From: Poritiphilus flavus
GTDB taxonomy: Bacteria; Bacteroidota; Bacteroidia; Flavobacteriales; Flavobacteriaceae
Reading direction: 5' to 3'
NCBI RefSeq assembly: GCF_009901585.1
Contig: NZ_WXYO01000008.1
Coordinates: 248,001 to 312,000 of the forward strand
Length of the DNA: 64,000 nt
Shown: piece after piece, positions 8,299-61,703 of the stretch
Position numbering within the stretch: position 1 is the stretch's first letter
Layout of the letters: each line of letters begins with the position of its first letter
Translations under genes and position numbers: made by a program
The notes under the pieces: model-generated
What the model saw: only the letters and a program-made list of their open reading frames with translations
Told to the model about the DNA's origin: nothing
The model's database searches: none

Positions 8299-9195
8299 CT
8301 AATCCGAAGTAAGTTCCGTAAATAAACTTTCCAGGTTCTTGTTCTTTCTGCTTAGCTGCAGGGTTTTCAGCTTGTTGTCATGAGCGAAGTCGAATACTGC
8401 CGGCCTCATGTCTTTGTCCGTATCAAAGCTTATTTCATAGACAAAGCCACCCGTATTCTTCACTGTGGTGGCATTGGGTAATTTTTTAAGCAGAACTTCT
8501 TCCACCCGGTAATCGAACTCCACTTCAATAATTTGTTCTTCCTCCTGCCGAAGGTCATCCAGGTTTTTGTCGCTCACTATACTGCCTTTGTTGATGATAA
8601 TAGCCCTGTCGCAAACAGCTTCTACCTCTTTCATGATATGGGTAGAGAGTAAAATGGTCTTCTCTTTGCCGATCTTACGGATTAGCCGGCGAATATCCAA
8701 TAATTGGTTCGGATCCAGGCCCGTAGTAGGCTCATCGAGAATTAACACCTCCGGATCGTGCAACAGTGCCGCGGCCAGACCAACACGCTGACGGTATCCT
8801 TTGGAAAGCTGCCCGATTTTTTTGTGCGCTTCAGGACTAAGCCCGGTCTGCTCTATAACTTCGGCTATGCGCGACTTGGGAACTTTGTACACCTCTGCAT
8901 TAAAGGCCAGGTATTCTTTTACGTAAAGGTCCAGGTAAAGCGGGTTATGTTCCGGCAGGTAGCCAACACTTTTCTGAACGCTTCTGGGCTCCGAGACCAC
9001 GTCAAAGCTGTTCACTTTGGCTTCTCCCGAATCTGAAGCACTATAAGTGGTAAGGATCTTCATTAGGGTGGATTTCCCTGCCCCGTTAGGCCCCAGGAAA
9101 CCTACAATTTCCCCCTTGCTGATCTCAAAAGAAACCTCGTTCAGTACTTTCTGGGACCCAAAGGATTTGCTAATGTTCTTTACCGATATGGACAT
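8299..9195 (-). CDS. gldA: Gliding motility ABC transporter ATP-binding subunit GldA
   Basis: 298 residues, an ABC-type ATPase: Walker A GPNGAGKST at about 35-43, signature LSKGYRQRVGLA at about 133, Walker B VLILDEPTTGLDP. Length, N-terminal MSISVKNISKSFGSQKVL and the C-terminal extension match the flavobacterial GldA family, which works with the membrane proteins GldF and GldG in gliding. gldFG are not in the window. The gene is convergent with the barrel gene (17-base gap) and divergent from the aromatic operon. The alternative is another single-component ABC-2-type ATPase, but the GldA match is good. Confidence 0.85.
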   Translation of the reverse strand: MSISVKNISKSFGSQKVLNEVSFEISKGEIVGFLGPNGAGKSTLMKILTTYSASDSGEAKVNSFDVVSEPRSVQKSVGYLPEHNPLYLDLYVKEYLAFNAEVYKVPKSRIAEVIEQTGLSPEAHKKIGQLSKGYRQRVGLAAALLHDPEVLILDEPTTGLDPNQLLDIRRLIRKIGKEKTILLSTHIMKEVEAVCDRAIIINKGSIVSDKNLDDLRQEEEQIIEVEFDYRVEEVLLKKLPNATTVKNTGGFVYEISFDTDKDMRPAVFDFAHDNKLKTLQLSRKNKNLESLFTELTSD

Positions 9196-9374: not shown

Positions 9375-9404
9375 TTTGAATTTTAAAATTAATAGCTACA
9401 TTAG
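9375..9404 (+). promoter_or_regulatory. Promoter of the aromatic amino acid operon leader
   Basis: TTTG at 9375-9378 and TACATTAG at 9397-9404 are separated by 18 bases, close to the TTTG-N19-TAnnTTTG promoter of Bacteroidota. Transcription would begin near 9411, about a dozen bases before the leader ATG. Confidence 0.5.
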
Positions 9405-9422
9405 CCCCTGAAATAAAGGAAA

Positions 9423-9494
9423 ATGACACGCACATATTTTTGGAACAGCTTTTACTTTTACTTCTTCTTTAAGAGGGGTACGGGACTGTTCTAG
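9423..9494 (+). CDS. Phe/Tyr-rich leader peptide of the aromatic operon
   Basis: A 23-codon frame (ATG 9423 to TAG 9492-9494) encodes MTRTYFWNSFYFYFFFKRG plus four residues. Eleven of 23 residues are aromatic: seven Phe, three Tyr, one Trp, with a run of seven consecutive aromatic codons at 9450-9470. It lies directly before a rho-independent terminator and the Phe/Tyr biosynthesis operon. This is the expected layout of a translation-coupled transcription attenuator: ribosome stalling at Phe/Tyr codons when charged tRNA is scarce would permit readthrough. The peptide itself has probably no other role. It is too short for ordinary gene callers. Confidence 0.8.
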   Translation: MTRTYFWNSFYFYFFFKRGTGLF

Positions 9495-9548
9495 TGTGCA
9501 TGAAACAATATCGCATATGAAGTCCCGTGAATTACGGGACTTTTTTTT
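9480..9548 (+). terminator. Attenuator: competing antiterminator and terminator stems before pheA
   Basis: The terminator is AGTCCCGT (9521-9528) paired with ACGGGACT (9534-9541), five-base loop, then eight T (9541-9548). An identical copy of the 3' arm, ACGGGACT, lies at 9480-9487 inside the last codons of the leader peptide. It can pair instead with 9521-9528 and block the terminator. A ribosome stalled in the aromatic run leaves 9480-9487 free (readthrough); a ribosome at the stop codon covers it (termination). The arms are seen directly; the mechanism is inferred from classical attenuation. Confidence 0.8.
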
Positions 9549-9575
9549 GGGATAAACTAAGTATTAAAGGCGCAT

Positions 9576-10424
9576 GTGGCCGGTAAAAACAACATATTGA
9601 AAAAAAAGATCGCCATACAGGGTATTAAGGGATCTAACCACCATCAGGTGGCCGAAGAGTATTTCGGGAATGGCATTGAATTGGTGGAATGCCTCTCCTT
9701 CCACGGTCTGGTAGATGAACTGATCAGCAAAAGGGCAGATCAGGGGGTTATGGCCCTGGAGAATTCTATTGCCGGTTCCATAATTCCGAATTACGCCCTG
9801 GTCTACGAGAACAATCTGCACATTATCGGAGAACATTACCTGAATATTCATCACAACCTCATGGTTCTGAACGGGCAAAGTCTGGGCGAGATCACCGAGG
9901 TGCATTCACATCCCATGGCTTTATTACAGTGTAGGGAGTATCTGAAAACTCAACCGCATATAAAGATGGTGGAAGATGTGGATACCGCGGAAACTGCCAA
10001 ACGTATACAGGATAATAAGTTAAAAGGAATTGCCGCCATAGCGCCCAAGGGCGCTGCAAAACTGTACGATCTGGAAATTATCGCCCCGGAAATCCAGACT
10101 ATTAAGAATAATGCTACGCGTTTCATCATTGTCAAAACCAGGAACAAGGAACTCCCACGGGAAGAGATCAACAAGGCATCGCTGAGGTTTATTACAGATC
10201 ATAAAAGGGGTAGCCTGGCAACTGTACTCAATGTAATGAGTGATTGCAATTTGAACCTTACCAAAATACAATCACTACCAATCATAGAAACACCCTGGAA
10301 GTATTCCTTCTTTGTAGATGTGACCTTTGAATCTTATGATCATTTCGCCAAGGCCAAATCACTACTAGAGATCATGGCTGAAGATTTTAAGGTATTAGGA
10401 GAATATAAAAATGCGAGATTATGA
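9576..10424 (+). CDS. pheA: Prephenate dehydratase
   Basis: 282 residues from a GTG at 9576. Converts prephenate to phenylpyruvate in phenylalanine synthesis, in the cytosol. The PDT domain occupies about residues 12-185 and includes the catalytic TRF motif in NNATRFIIVKT. A C-terminal ACT domain (about 195-280: GSLATVLNVMSDCNLNLTKI) should mediate Phe feedback. No chorismate mutase domain is fused here; that activity is in the last gene of the operon. A TTG further in (near 9597) is a possible alternative start. The gene lies 28 bases after the attenuator T-tract and overlaps the next gene by four bases (ATGA). Confidence 0.92.
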   Translation: MAGKNNILKKKIAIQGIKGSNHHQVAEEYFGNGIELVECLSFHGLVDELISKRADQGVMALENSIAGSIIPNYALVYENNLHIIGEHYLNIHHNLMVLNGQSLGEITEVHSHPMALLQCREYLKTQPHIKMVEDVDTAETAKRIQDNKLKGIAAIAPKGAAKLYDLEIIAPEIQTIKNNATRFIIVKTRNKELPREEINKASLRFITDHKRGSLATVLNVMSDCNLNLTKIQSLPIIETPWKYSFFVDVTFESYDHFAKAKSLLEIMAEDFKVLGEYKNARL

Positions 10425-11572
10425 TCCCTGTTGCAAATCGATTACATACCGTTGAAGAGTACTACTTCTCCAGGAAGTTGAGAGAGGTAAGGGAATTGGC
10501 AGCCCAGGGCAAGCCCATTATCAATATGGGTATAGGCAGTCCGGATCTTCCGCCCTCGCCAGAGGTTATCTCCAGTTTACAGGAGGCCATGTCCGCTGTA
10601 AGTGCCCACCAGTATCAGAGCTACCAGGGTTTACCCGAACTCAGAACCGCGATTAGTGGATTTTACAATAGAATGTTTGGAGTTCAGGCAGACCCGGGTA
10701 CTGAAGTGCTTCCCCTGATGGGCTCTAAAGAGGGTATTATGCATATTAGTATGGCTTTCCTGAATGAAGGGGATGAGGTGCTGATCCCGGATCCGGGATA
10801 TCCTACTTATACCTCCGTTTCCAAATTAGTAGGTGCCATACCAAGAAAGTATCACCTCACAGAGGCAAACAATTGGCTGCCAGACCTGAACGGGCTGGAA
10901 AAGGAGGATCTTTCCCGGGTTAAGTTGATGTGGGTAAACTACCCGCATATGCCTACGGGAGCCAAAGCCAGTGAGGAACAATTAGCTGATTTAATTGGCT
11001 TTGCAAAGCGAAACGATATTCTGGTTATTAATGATAACCCCTATAGTTTTGTTCTCAATGACCAGCCCACCAGTCTTTTAAAGGTAGAAGGCGCCAAAGC
11101 AGTGGCTCTGGAATTGAATTCATTGAGTAAGACCTTTAATATGGCCGGATGGCGAATAGGGATGGTTCTTGGAAGCAGCGAACATATCAATGCCATACTT
11201 AAGGTAAAAAGCAATATGGATTCAGGCATGTTTTACGGCCTGCAGAAAGGCGCGATTTCGGCTCTTGGCAGCAGCGCCTCCTGGTACGCCGGGCAAGATC
11301 GTATTTACACTTCCAGACGCAGCCTTATTTTTGAGTTGGCGGACAGACTGGGTTGTACTTATGACAGTTCTGCGGCAGGGATGTTTGTATGGGCTAAACT
11401 GCCGACAGGGGCAGCGAGCTCAGAATCTTATATTGATGAGTTGCTCTATGACAAACACCTTTTTGTGGCCCCGGGTACTGTTTTTGGTAATAATGGGGAA
11501 GGTTTTATCCGTTTTTCCCTCTGTGTGAAGGAACCCAAAATAGAGGAGGCCATAAATAGAATTAATAGCTAG
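10421..11572 (+). CDS. PLP-dependent class I/II aminotransferase (aromatic operon)
   Basis: 383 residues. Fold-type I aminotransferase with the PLP-binding Lys in SLSKTFNMAGWRIG at about residue 235, the Asn/Tyr cofactor pair in NDNPYSF, and the substrate-carboxylate Arg in FIRFSLCV near the C-terminus. It resembles aspartate/LL-diaminopimelate-type aminotransferases. Its position between prephenate dehydratase and prephenate dehydrogenase points to transamination of phenylpyruvate and 4-hydroxyphenylpyruvate to Phe and Tyr, which is an inference from context. It overlaps pheA by four bases and precedes tyrA by one base, so translation is probably coupled. Confidence 0.88.
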   Translation: MIPVANRLHTVEEYYFSRKLREVRELAAQGKPIINMGIGSPDLPPSPEVISSLQEAMSAVSAHQYQSYQGLPELRTAISGFYNRMFGVQADPGTEVLPLMGSKEGIMHISMAFLNEGDEVLIPDPGYPTYTSVSKLVGAIPRKYHLTEANNWLPDLNGLEKEDLSRVKLMWVNYPHMPTGAKASEEQLADLIGFAKRNDILVINDNPYSFVLNDQPTSLLKVEGAKAVALELNSLSKTFNMAGWRIGMVLGSSEHINAILKVKSNMDSGMFYGLQKGAISALGSSASWYAGQDRIYTSRRSLIFELADRLGCTYDSSAAGMFVWAKLPTGAASSESYIDELLYDKHLFVAPGTVFGNNGEGFIRFSLCVKEPKIEEAINRINS

Positions 11573-11573
11573 T

Positions 11574-12437
11574 ATGGATGTATTTGTAATCGGTATAGGA
11601 TTGATTGGAGGTTCCCTGGCAAGGGATATCCGGAGGTTTCAGGAAGATGTCAGGATTTACGGCCTGGACGACAACCCTGCCCATATGAACGAAGCCCTGC
11701 GACTGGGACTGGTGGATGAGGAAGCAAGCTATGATCAGCTTTCAGAAGCCGATGTTGTGCTGGTAAGTATCCCTGTAGATGCTTCCGTAAGGGAATTGCC
11801 AAAGATCCTGGATAAGGTAGGGGACGACACCCTGGTAATAGACGCGGGTTCTACCAAAGCATTAATCTGCAACACGCTATCAGATCATCCCAAAAGAAGG
11901 AATTTTATGGCCTGCCACCCCATAGCCGGTACGGAGTTTTCCGGCCCGACTGCAGCAATCGATGAACTGTACCAGGGGAAAACAAATATCATCTGTGAAG
12001 TAGAAAAGACCGCCTTTAAATTACAGGAAAGGGGGCTTGAGCTCTTTAAAAAGCTGGGAATGCGTATTCGGTATATGAATCCTGAGGCGCATGACAAGCA
12101 CATTGCCTATGTTTCCCACCTTTCCCATATCAGTTCTTTTATGCTGGGCAAGACGGTCATAGAAAAGGAAAAGAACGAAAGGGATATTTTCGATATGGCC
12201 GGCAGTGGTTTTGAAAGTACTGTGCGCCTGGCCAAAAGCTCACCCGATATGTGGACCCCTATTTTTGAACAGAATAAGGAAAACGTATTGGAAACACTTG
12301 AGGAGTACATCCGGAACCTGGAGGAATTCAAACAGAAACTGTTGCAGGATGATTACGAGGGTATCTACGGAGAAATGAATAACACGAACAAAATAAAAGA
12401 GATCTTAAAAGGTATTGTACCACAGAACAAAAACTAG
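11574..12437 (+). CDS. tyrA: Prephenate dehydrogenase
   Basis: 287 residues. Oxidises prephenate to 4-hydroxyphenylpyruvate for tyrosine synthesis. An N-terminal NAD(P)-binding Rossmann motif is seen as GIGLIGGSLARDI (residues 6-18). The conserved HPIAGTEFSGP is at about 115-125, and the helical dimerisation domain fills the C-terminal half with HxxHISSF around residue 182. There is no ACT or mutase extension, so it is the short monofunctional form. It is third in the tightly packed aromatic operon and should be controlled by the leader attenuator. Confidence 0.92.
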   Translation: MDVFVIGIGLIGGSLARDIRRFQEDVRIYGLDDNPAHMNEALRLGLVDEEASYDQLSEADVVLVSIPVDASVRELPKILDKVGDDTLVIDAGSTKALICNTLSDHPKRRNFMACHPIAGTEFSGPTAAIDELYQGKTNIICEVEKTAFKLQERGLELFKKLGMRIRYMNPEAHDKHIAYVSHLSHISSFMLGKTVIEKEKNERDIFDMAGSGFESTVRLAKSSPDMWTPIFEQNKENVLETLEEYIRNLEEFKQKLLQDDYEGIYGEMNNTNKIKEILKGIVPQNKN

Positions 12438-12445
12438 AACAAGAA

Positions 12446-13528
12446 ATGGAGAATTCAAAAGCATTAAGGACCTGGTTAGACGATATGAATTTACCGCATC
12501 CTTTGGTCATTGCCGGGCCCTGCAGTGCTGAAACTGAGGACCAGGTATTGCAAATAGCCCATGAACTGAAAGACACCGACGTGAACTACTATCGCGCTGG
12601 CATCTGGAAGCCAAGGACCAGACCTGGTAACTTTGAAGGGGTAGGCGCCATAGGACTAAAATGGCTGCAAAAAGTAAAGGAGGAAACAGGGCTGAAGACG
12701 GCGATCGAGGTAGCCAATAAAACGCATGTAGACCTGGCCCTGGAGCACGATATAGACATGTTGTGGATCGGAGCCCGCTCTACGGTAAGCCCTTTTATAG
12801 TTCAGGATATTGCGGATGCCCTTAAGGGAACCGATAAAATAGTGCTGGTAAAGAACCCCGTAAATCCGGACCTTTCGCTTTGGCTTGGTGCGGTGGAGCG
12901 CCTGCATTCTGCAAACATTAAGAAACTGGGAGTGATCCACAGAGGCTTTTCCACCTATGAGAAGACCAAATACCGGAATATTCCGGAGTGGCAACTGGCC
13001 ATAGAATTGCAGACCAGGTTCCCGGACCTTCCCCTGATCAACGACCCATCTCATATTACCGGGAAGCGCGATATGATCCTGGATGTCTCCCAGACCGCGT
13101 TAGACCTGAATTTTGACGGTCTGATGATTGAAACCCATTGCGATCCGGACAATGCCTGGAGCGATGCGGCACAACAAGTAACCCCTAAAAGATTGGTACA
13201 GATTATGGAAGATCTAAGGATAAGGAAAGAAACGGACACGGAAGCGGAATTCAAGAGCCAATTGAGCAATCTTCGGGCACAGATAGACATCATTGACAAC
13301 CAACTAATTGAAACCCTGGGCAAGCGTATGAAGATCTCCGATAGCATCGGTGAGATCAAGAAGCAGCGAAACGTTGCAGTACTTCAGACCAACCGCTGGA
13401 ATTCTATCCTTGGGAAGATGATCCTCGAGGGCGAATCCAGGGGACTGAGCGAAGAATTCGTGCTGCGTATGTTCAAGGCGATTCACCAGGAATCCATCAA
13501 CCACCAGGAGAAGATTATCAATTCATAA
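12446..13528 (+). CDS. Bifunctional DAHP synthase / chorismate mutase
   Basis: 360 residues. Residues about 1-260 are a type I-beta 3-deoxy-D-arabino-heptulosonate-7-phosphate synthase (AGPCSAETEDQV near residue 20, GARSTVSPF, LINDPSHITGKRD). Residues about 270-355 are an AroQ-type chorismate mutase (IDIIDNQLIETLGKRMKISD). One protein thus covers the first step of the shikimate pathway and the branch-point step to prephenate, supplying the two enzymes encoded upstream. Family knowledge: in such fusions the mutase domain also transmits feedback to the synthase. It is the last gene of the operon, eight bases after tyrA, and is followed by a hairpin at 13593-13625. Confidence 0.9.
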   Translation: MENSKALRTWLDDMNLPHPLVIAGPCSAETEDQVLQIAHELKDTDVNYYRAGIWKPRTRPGNFEGVGAIGLKWLQKVKEETGLKTAIEVANKTHVDLALEHDIDMLWIGARSTVSPFIVQDIADALKGTDKIVLVKNPVNPDLSLWLGAVERLHSANIKKLGVIHRGFSTYEKTKYRNIPEWQLAIELQTRFPDLPLINDPSHITGKRDMILDVSQTALDLNFDGLMIETHCDPDNAWSDAAQQVTPKRLVQIMEDLRIRKETDTEAEFKSQLSNLRAQIDIIDNQLIETLGKRMKISDSIGEIKKQRNVAVLQTNRWNSILGKMILEGESRGLSEEFVLRMFKAIHQESINHQEKIINS

Positions 13529-61629: not shown

Positions 61630-61703
61630 GGCCGCGTAGTTCAACTGGATAGAATATCAGATTTCGGCTCTGAGGGTTGGGGGTTCGAATCCTCCCGCGG
61701 TCA
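61630..61703 (+). tRNA. tRNA-Arg (anticodon TCG)
   Basis: 74 bases folding as a full cloverleaf: acceptor GGCCGCG with CGCGGTC (one G-U), D stem GTTC/GAAT, anticodon stem TCAGA/TCTGA around loop TTTCGGC with anticodon TCG at 61664-61666, five-base variable loop, T arm GGGGG-TTCGAAT-CCTCC. Discriminator A. CCA is not encoded, as is common in Bacteroidota. A hairpin with T-tract follows at 61724-61755. Confidence 0.92.

Follow-up and report, generated by a model that had tools for sequence, protein, structure and literature searches.

How a single leader transcript could adjust an operon that makes two amino acids to the supply of both, and how many RNA segments such a response involves, are questions raised by the DNA upstream of pheA in Poritiphilus flavus. 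The window, which is the whole stretch of 64,000 nucleotides that was analysed, had been predicted to hold a Phe/Tyr transcription attenuator of three segments before an aromatic operon. Attenuators of the enterobacterial pheA/pheL type consist of a Phe-rich leader with a protector, an antiterminator, and an intrinsic terminator, and the pheL leader of Escherichia coli is without Tyr codons. The results presented here uphold the type and the job of the predicted element, and overturn its three-segment design. Very likely, the element is a classic transcription attenuator with four segments, in which the ribosome mediates a joint response to charged tRNA-Phe and charged tRNA-Tyr.

Results

The leader region and the operon that it precedes

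The leader ORF occupies positions 9423-9494 of the plus strand (ATG at 9423, TAG at 9492-9494) and has an A at -3. Its 23 codons specify the peptide MTRTYFWNSFYFYFFFKRGTGLF, with seven Phe, three Tyr and one Trp, in agreement with the original prediction, and the leader alignment places the control codons F10, Y11, F12, Y13, F14, F15, and F16 at 9450-9470. Upstream, at 9375-9404 of the same strand, lies the promoter that had also been predicted, read from the sequence as TTTG (9375-9378), an 18 nt spacer, and TACATTAG (9397-9404), a pair that we take to be of the Bacteroidota type; the sigma-70 promoter scan does not take in promoters of that type. Of 93 distinct leaders, 87 have a TANNTT[A/T]G box no more than 45 nt 5' of the ATG, as compared to 155 of 1860 mononucleotide shuffles, and the box usually ends 18-19 nt 5' of the ATG. 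An A at -3 is found in 76 of these 93 leaders. The AAGGA that precedes the P. flavus leader ATG was not conserved in the aligned relatives.

The leader is followed by an intrinsic terminator hairpin at 9519-9543, with 11 pairs and then a U-run at 9541-9548. The sequence ACGGGACT is present twice, at 9480-9487 and, inside the terminator, at 9534-9541, so that the predicted duplication of the terminator 3' arm is borne out, and its complement AGTCCCGT lies at 9521-9528. Four segments can be delimited on the plus strand. Segment 1, UGGAACAGC (9441-9449), is the core of a protector 1:2 hairpin with 9485-9493, as indicated by pair counts, folding, and synonymous shuffles. Segment 2 (9480-9493) consists of the antiterminator arm ACGGGACT (9480-9487) and of GUUCUA, the 3' arm of the protector. 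Segment 3 (9519-9529) is the 5' arm of the terminator and includes AGUCCCGU (9521-9528), which pairs with 9480-9487 in the antiterminator. Segment 4 (9533-9548) contains the 3' arm of the terminator (9533-9543) and the U-run. In the single-sequence fold, the protector hairpin extends over 9427-9502 at -25.3 kcal/mol, and the fold of 9400-9580 has a z of -4.0, with equal stability in 0 of 200 shuffles. As a pattern the terminator is unremarkable (one found, 1.3 expected from shuffles of 1.2 kb); it is its position after the leader that makes it notable.

The first gene of the operon, pheA (9597-10424, plus strand), encodes a prephenate dehydratase with an ACT-like domain (Pfam PDT, 194 bits; ACT, 21.6 bits, below the cut-off of 27). 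It is followed on the same strand by genes assigned from ORFs and Pfam to a class I/II aminotransferase (10421-11572), the prephenate dehydrogenase tyrA (11574-12437), and a joined DAHP synthase and chorismate mutase (12446-13528). This operon serves Phe and Tyr together. The nearest upstream gene, for an ABC transporter ATPase (8299-9195, ORF and Pfam), is divergent. The pheA start codon is uncertain, being either TTG at 9597 or GTG at 9576.

The same terminator could in principle be shared with a leader that binds a metabolite or a protein, in the manner of a riboswitch, a T-box, or a TRAP-like element. We found no point in support of such a leader, and consider it the least probable of the alternatives weighed here, since at gathering score Rfam 15 has a tRNA as its sole match in the whole window and none in the pheA element, and since conservation follows the ORF together with its arms, the sequence that separates arm 2 from arm 3 being variable. 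The relaxed threshold yielded weak matches below the cut-off, none of them usable. Rfam RF01859 (Phe_leader) scored 18.9 bits (E 0.79) against a gathering cut-off of 55, which places the P. flavus element outside that family. The tRNA gene matched by Rfam is at 61630-61703.

Conservation of the leader within Flavobacteriaceae

Among 299 family genomes, pheA was detected in 268, and the best 30 loci were taken, with P. flavus included. A second collection of 80 named loci was retained from 460 relatives (Muriicola, Eudoraea, Maribacter, Arenibacter, Zobellia, Flagellimonas, and others); the two sets share species, and both were ranked by similarity to the query. All 110 of these close pheA loci (30 + 80) have a leader of this type, with 93 distinct leader ORFs, and a leader ORF in which codons for the products of the operon directly 3' of it form a run is the arrangement of an attenuator. 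The FYFYFFF core is almost invariant among the distinct leaders and codons 2-4 are variable. In the 84 distinct leaders of 23 residues, Phe or Tyr is encoded at codons 12-15 in all 84, at codon 10 in 80, at codon 11 in 78, and at codon 16 in 82. Codon 7 is Trp in just 56 of the 84, and Trp is therefore not a constant control codon.

A script survey of the 450 bases 5' of pheA found the leader and terminator at 157 of 157 family loci (30/30, 80/80, 26/26, and 21/21), a total that counts some species twice. Pooled over all surveyed groups, the controls were positive for 3 of 588 sequences with shuffled dinucleotides and for 5 of 196 antisense sequences. These figures refer to a terminator rule that was relaxed after inspection of Flavobacterium-like loci that a strict rule had missed, and with which the controls were rerun; the strict rule gave 15 of 26 at L158-L183, with controls of 0/609 shuffles and 3/203 antisense. 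Genomes of genus g128, taken for Flavobacterium, carry the pheA leader.

Alternative pairing of four segments

Pairing was examined in an alignment of 55 of the 110 close loci, obtained by removing every row that shared over 80% identity with a retained row. Pairs are formed in 98.9% of cells for the terminator 3:4, in 92.5% for the antiterminator 2:3, and in 90.7% for the protector 1:2 (9441-9449/9485-9493), with four, four, and two pairs changed on both sides, respectively. With the partners slid by 1-3 columns these values fall to 17-66%, 9-56%, and 33-64%. Matched changes occur in arms 2, 3, and 4 of locus L030 and in arms 2 and 3 of L101. With the leader at 110 of 110 loci and the antiterminator arm paired to this degree in the 55 aligned, the relatives retain both the aromatic codons and the arm, whose joint loss would have counted against the original prediction. 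The antiterminator and the intrinsic terminator are mutually exclusive, as they are in an attenuator.

Folding was compared with that of synonymous shuffles (200 per locus, 55 loci). Self-folding of the leader averaged -21.2 kcal/mol versus -11.6 kcal/mol for the shuffles, and was below the synonymous mean at 55 of 55 loci and among the best 5% at 49 of 55. The 2:3 duplex averaged -14.5 versus -9.8 kcal/mol and was likewise below the synonymous mean at 55 of 55 loci, with only 28 of 55 among the best 5%. Self-folding also beat the synonymous mean at 44 of 45 distant family loci and at 18 of 19 loci of other families.

These data bear on the design first proposed, a minimal three-segment device without a protector hairpin and thus simpler than its enterobacterial counterparts. 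Such a device would account for the 2:3 and 3:4 pairings, which are both real, and it gains something from the protector pairs changed on both sides, the count of which does not rise above that of shuffles (it was equalled or exceeded in 330 of 500). However, the helix of 9441-9449 with 9485-9493 is conserved in the 55 relatives far beyond its slid versions, its covariation score exceeds that of shuffles (0 of 500), and leader self-folding has been selected beyond the peptide, not only at the 55 loci, but also at distant family loci and in other families. We consider it very improbable that the element lacks a protector. The protector overlaps the antiterminator arm, as in a four-segment attenuator, although one shuffle measure gives no support. 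Judged by these comparisons, the protector segment is conserved and selected beyond the needs of the peptide, which argues for four segments and not three.

A different view would be that a constitutive upstream terminator simply damps transcription, and that the leader encodes a functional micropeptide. The peptide is indeed well conserved across the close loci, and K17 (65/84) and R18 (62/84) are conserved despite lying outside the core pairings. Conservation outside the aromatic run is nevertheless found mostly at the RNA-paired codons 7-9 and 21-22, the fold is lost on synonymous shuffling, and outside the family the peptide diverges widely while the F/Y run and the terminator persist. Codons 7 and 23, moreover, covary as base pairing demands: the counts for codon 7 (Trp or not) versus codon 23 (Phe or not) are 37/19 versus 2/26 (Fisher p 1.4e-7, uncorrected for kinship), a covariation that fits what the predicted 1:2 pairing would require. 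There is accordingly little probability that a micropeptide explains this leader, and attenuation through four segments is the interpretation carried forward.

Ribosome position and the proposed mechanism

The effect of a ribosome was calculated by folding the RNA left free 3' of it, on the assumption that its leading edge lies 9 nt 3' of the A-site codon. Formation of 2:3 had a P of ~1 with the A site at codons 1-17 and a P of 0 from codon 18 onward. With its final Phe at codon 16, the control run stops just short of this switch, and a ribosome halted in the run masks segment 1 and not segment 2, given the assumed 9-nt leading edge. For the full-length RNA at equilibrium, 3:4 was favoured at all ribosome positions tried, the halted position included (footprints one base off). 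Since the terminator wins at equilibrium, antitermination would need 2:3 to be formed before segment 4 is made, and the decision would be kinetic, as it likewise is in classic attenuators. Because 2:3 must form first, close coupling of transcription and translation would be needed. Judged by title, none of the papers retrieved in a literature search treats such coupling in Bacteroidota.

The ORF, arms, conservation, covariation, and geometry would be explained by leader translation, ribosome stalling, coupling, and regulated readthrough in the following way. Transcription would start ~10-15 nt 5' of the leader ATG, as inferred from the promoter box, and a ribosome would trail RNA polymerase along the leader. 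When Phe or Tyr is short, the ribosome would halt in FYFYFFF and mask segment 1 (9441-9449), leaving segment 2 (9480-9487) exposed to capture segment 3 (9521-9528) as it emerges, so that 3:4 is blocked and the operon is transcribed. When both amino acids are plentiful, the ribosome would reach codon 18 to the stop codon and mask segment 2, which would permit 3:4 to form and transcription to terminate at 9541-9548. If no ribosome is present, 1:2 (-25.3 kcal/mol) would form first and sequester segment 2, and 3:4 would again terminate transcription.

Occurrence beyond the family

A covariance model, R1, was built from the pheA element and, with search filters that lose weak matches, it had matches in 198 of the 299 genomes of the family and, phylum-wide, in 22 of 395. 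In 45 of 47 R1-matched loci examined, pheA lies directly 3'. The other two (L152 and L154, two genomes of family f3) precede a gene read as an aspartokinase, and have a Thr/Ile leader, MIFNTSIITTIIITTG, with a terminator. Nine of the 22 phylum matches are outside the family, and seven of these precede pheA.

By script, the leader and terminator were found at 19 of 27 loci in other families of the same class, or at 24 of 32 when five R1-matched places, all positive and omitted from the 27, are included, and at 4 of 12 loci in other classes, these 12 having been chosen by hand from a longer list. Of the eight misses, two are positive by other means, L205 under the strict rule and L213 by eye, with two units. 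Loci L235-L255 were hand-picked, many of them for a weak or absent R1 match, and the survey lies outside families f2 (order level) and f10 (class level), where R1 matches were too weak to list. The pheA element is thus general in Flavobacteriaceae, frequent in several other families, and, at many distant pheA loci, either missing or not recognised.

Leaders of other amino acid operons

A leader with a His run precedes hisG at 12 of 12 loci (L184-L195; 17 genomes searched), with a terminator found by script at ten and by eye at the remaining two, L191 and L192. The P. flavus hisG leader, MRNNNTHHHFCTGARAR, is at locus L189, near 285753 of G000:C16. The leaders of trpE-like genes (L256-L269) have WWW in 12 of 14 cases and WW in 2 of 14, and a terminator by script in 12 of 14; the genes themselves all score below the trpE family cut-off, with the best match per genome spanning the whole family model. 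In P. flavus, the leader of the trpE-like gene, MKVLTVHTWWWKNLRHKS, and its terminator are at L258, near 59222 of G000:C12. By eye, the trpE-like gene at L257 (genome G679, from a different family within the same order) is preceded by two WWW leaders in series, and a terminator-like hairpin follows each of them.

Upstream of the P. flavus aspartokinase gene thrA (L276) there is a Thr-rich short ORF, for which the scan found no terminator. As a further attenuated operon, ilvD was rejected: no convincing branched-chain leader was found by script at 13 loci, of which L301 is without upstream sequence and L299 has only 242 bases.

Tandem units upstream of pheA

In two other families of the same class, two Phe/Tyr leader-terminator units precede pheA, at 6 of 29 loci in the family of G367 and at 11 of 24 in the family of G333, counts that leave out five incomplete loci; another rule gave 5/30 and 11/28. 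The tandem loci are L310, L313, L317, L320, L333, and L334 in family f9, and L342, L344, L345, L346, L348, L349, L351, L353, L356, L357, and L363 in family f5, with L356 doubtful, as its first terminator falls within or after the second leader. In the controls of this survey, none of 265 shuffles and none of 53 antisense sequences had even one unit. The P. flavus window has one unit, and its family has a single tandem flag, at L240, where the upstream unit is doubtful. The mean z against synonymous shuffles was -0.16 for the first and -0.88 for the second unit, in a comparison that is uninformative for most. In our opinion, this weak signal may arise because the antiterminator arm of these units is mostly 3' of the leader stop codon.

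Discussion

The P. flavus element resembles enterobacterial pheA/pheL (RF01859) in having a Phe-rich leader, a protector, an antiterminator, and a terminator 5' of the gene for prephenate dehydratase. It differs in that Tyr codons are interleaved with Phe codons, unlike in E. coli pheL, and in that tyrA, an aminotransferase, and DAHP synthase are added to the operon, in comparison with enterobacterial pheA. The principle of attenuation is textbook knowledge; here it is kept across a large bacterial group in which it is hardly described. The arrangement suggests how an operon that makes two amino acids could be tuned by both.

Attenuator candidates in Bacteroidetes/Chlorobi were reportedly listed in a survey of 2004. 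In the accessible portion of a 2010 paper, the authors knew of no demonstrated leader-peptide system beyond Proteobacteria and Actinobacteria before their own case in Firmicutes (PMC2965389), and leader-peptide-like ORFs have been noted in Bacteroides in the part available of another (PMC7366714). The available text of a 2021 transcriptome study reports structured 5' elements at pheA and hisG of F. psychrophilum that are conserved in other Flavobacteriaceae, the pheA element having no Rfam match, and mentions "strong clues" that amino-acid operons in general are attenuated through leader peptides (PMC9723704). The original prediction that attenuators of this kind are little described in Bacteroidota is hence fair, provided that it is not taken to mean undescribed, as that text names a 5' element of pheA. 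Compared by description, the F. psychrophilum element very probably corresponds to the one studied here, as it occurs in a different genus. The account of it in the sections available gives no leader sequence, arms, signal, four segments, reading of Phe and Tyr, or spread beyond the family (PMC9723704).

Our search, which covered subscription journals thinly, found no paper on the anatomy of the pheA element or on tandem leader peptides for the same signal. As far as the literature could be read, the anatomy, the spread to several other families, the sister leaders of P. flavus for His and Trp, and the same-signal tandems are new. Breadth in Bacteroidota, the joint reading of Phe and Tyr, and the tandem versions are the parts that merit specialist attention, and R1 supplies a model of an element that Rfam 15 does not match.

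It seems rather probable that leader-peptide attenuation of aromatic, His, and Trp synthesis is old and Bacteroidota-wide, with one leader that reads both Phe and Tyr for the whole branch, sister His, Trp, and Thr/Ile leaders at hisG, trpE, and thrA, and a same-signal double lock in some families. If so, transcription and translation would be tightly coupled in a phylum without Shine-Dalgarno-led initiation, because no unit could work without a ribosome that follows RNA polymerase closely, and the attenuators of Bacteroidota would be natural reporters of ribosome-RNA polymerase proximity. The available part of one report describes mRNAs without Shine-Dalgarno sequences in F. johnsoniae and its phylum (PMC6847099).

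Two leader ORFs in series are known to attenuate one operon in Salmonella, where those of mgtCBR respond to ATP and proline, according to the part of the paper available (PMC3641672). The tandem pheA units are like this system, as described there, in their seriality, and differ from it in that both units carry Phe/Tyr codons. Tandem attenuators for the same signal allow a comparison against single ones. By eye, L213 and L216 also have two pheA units in series.
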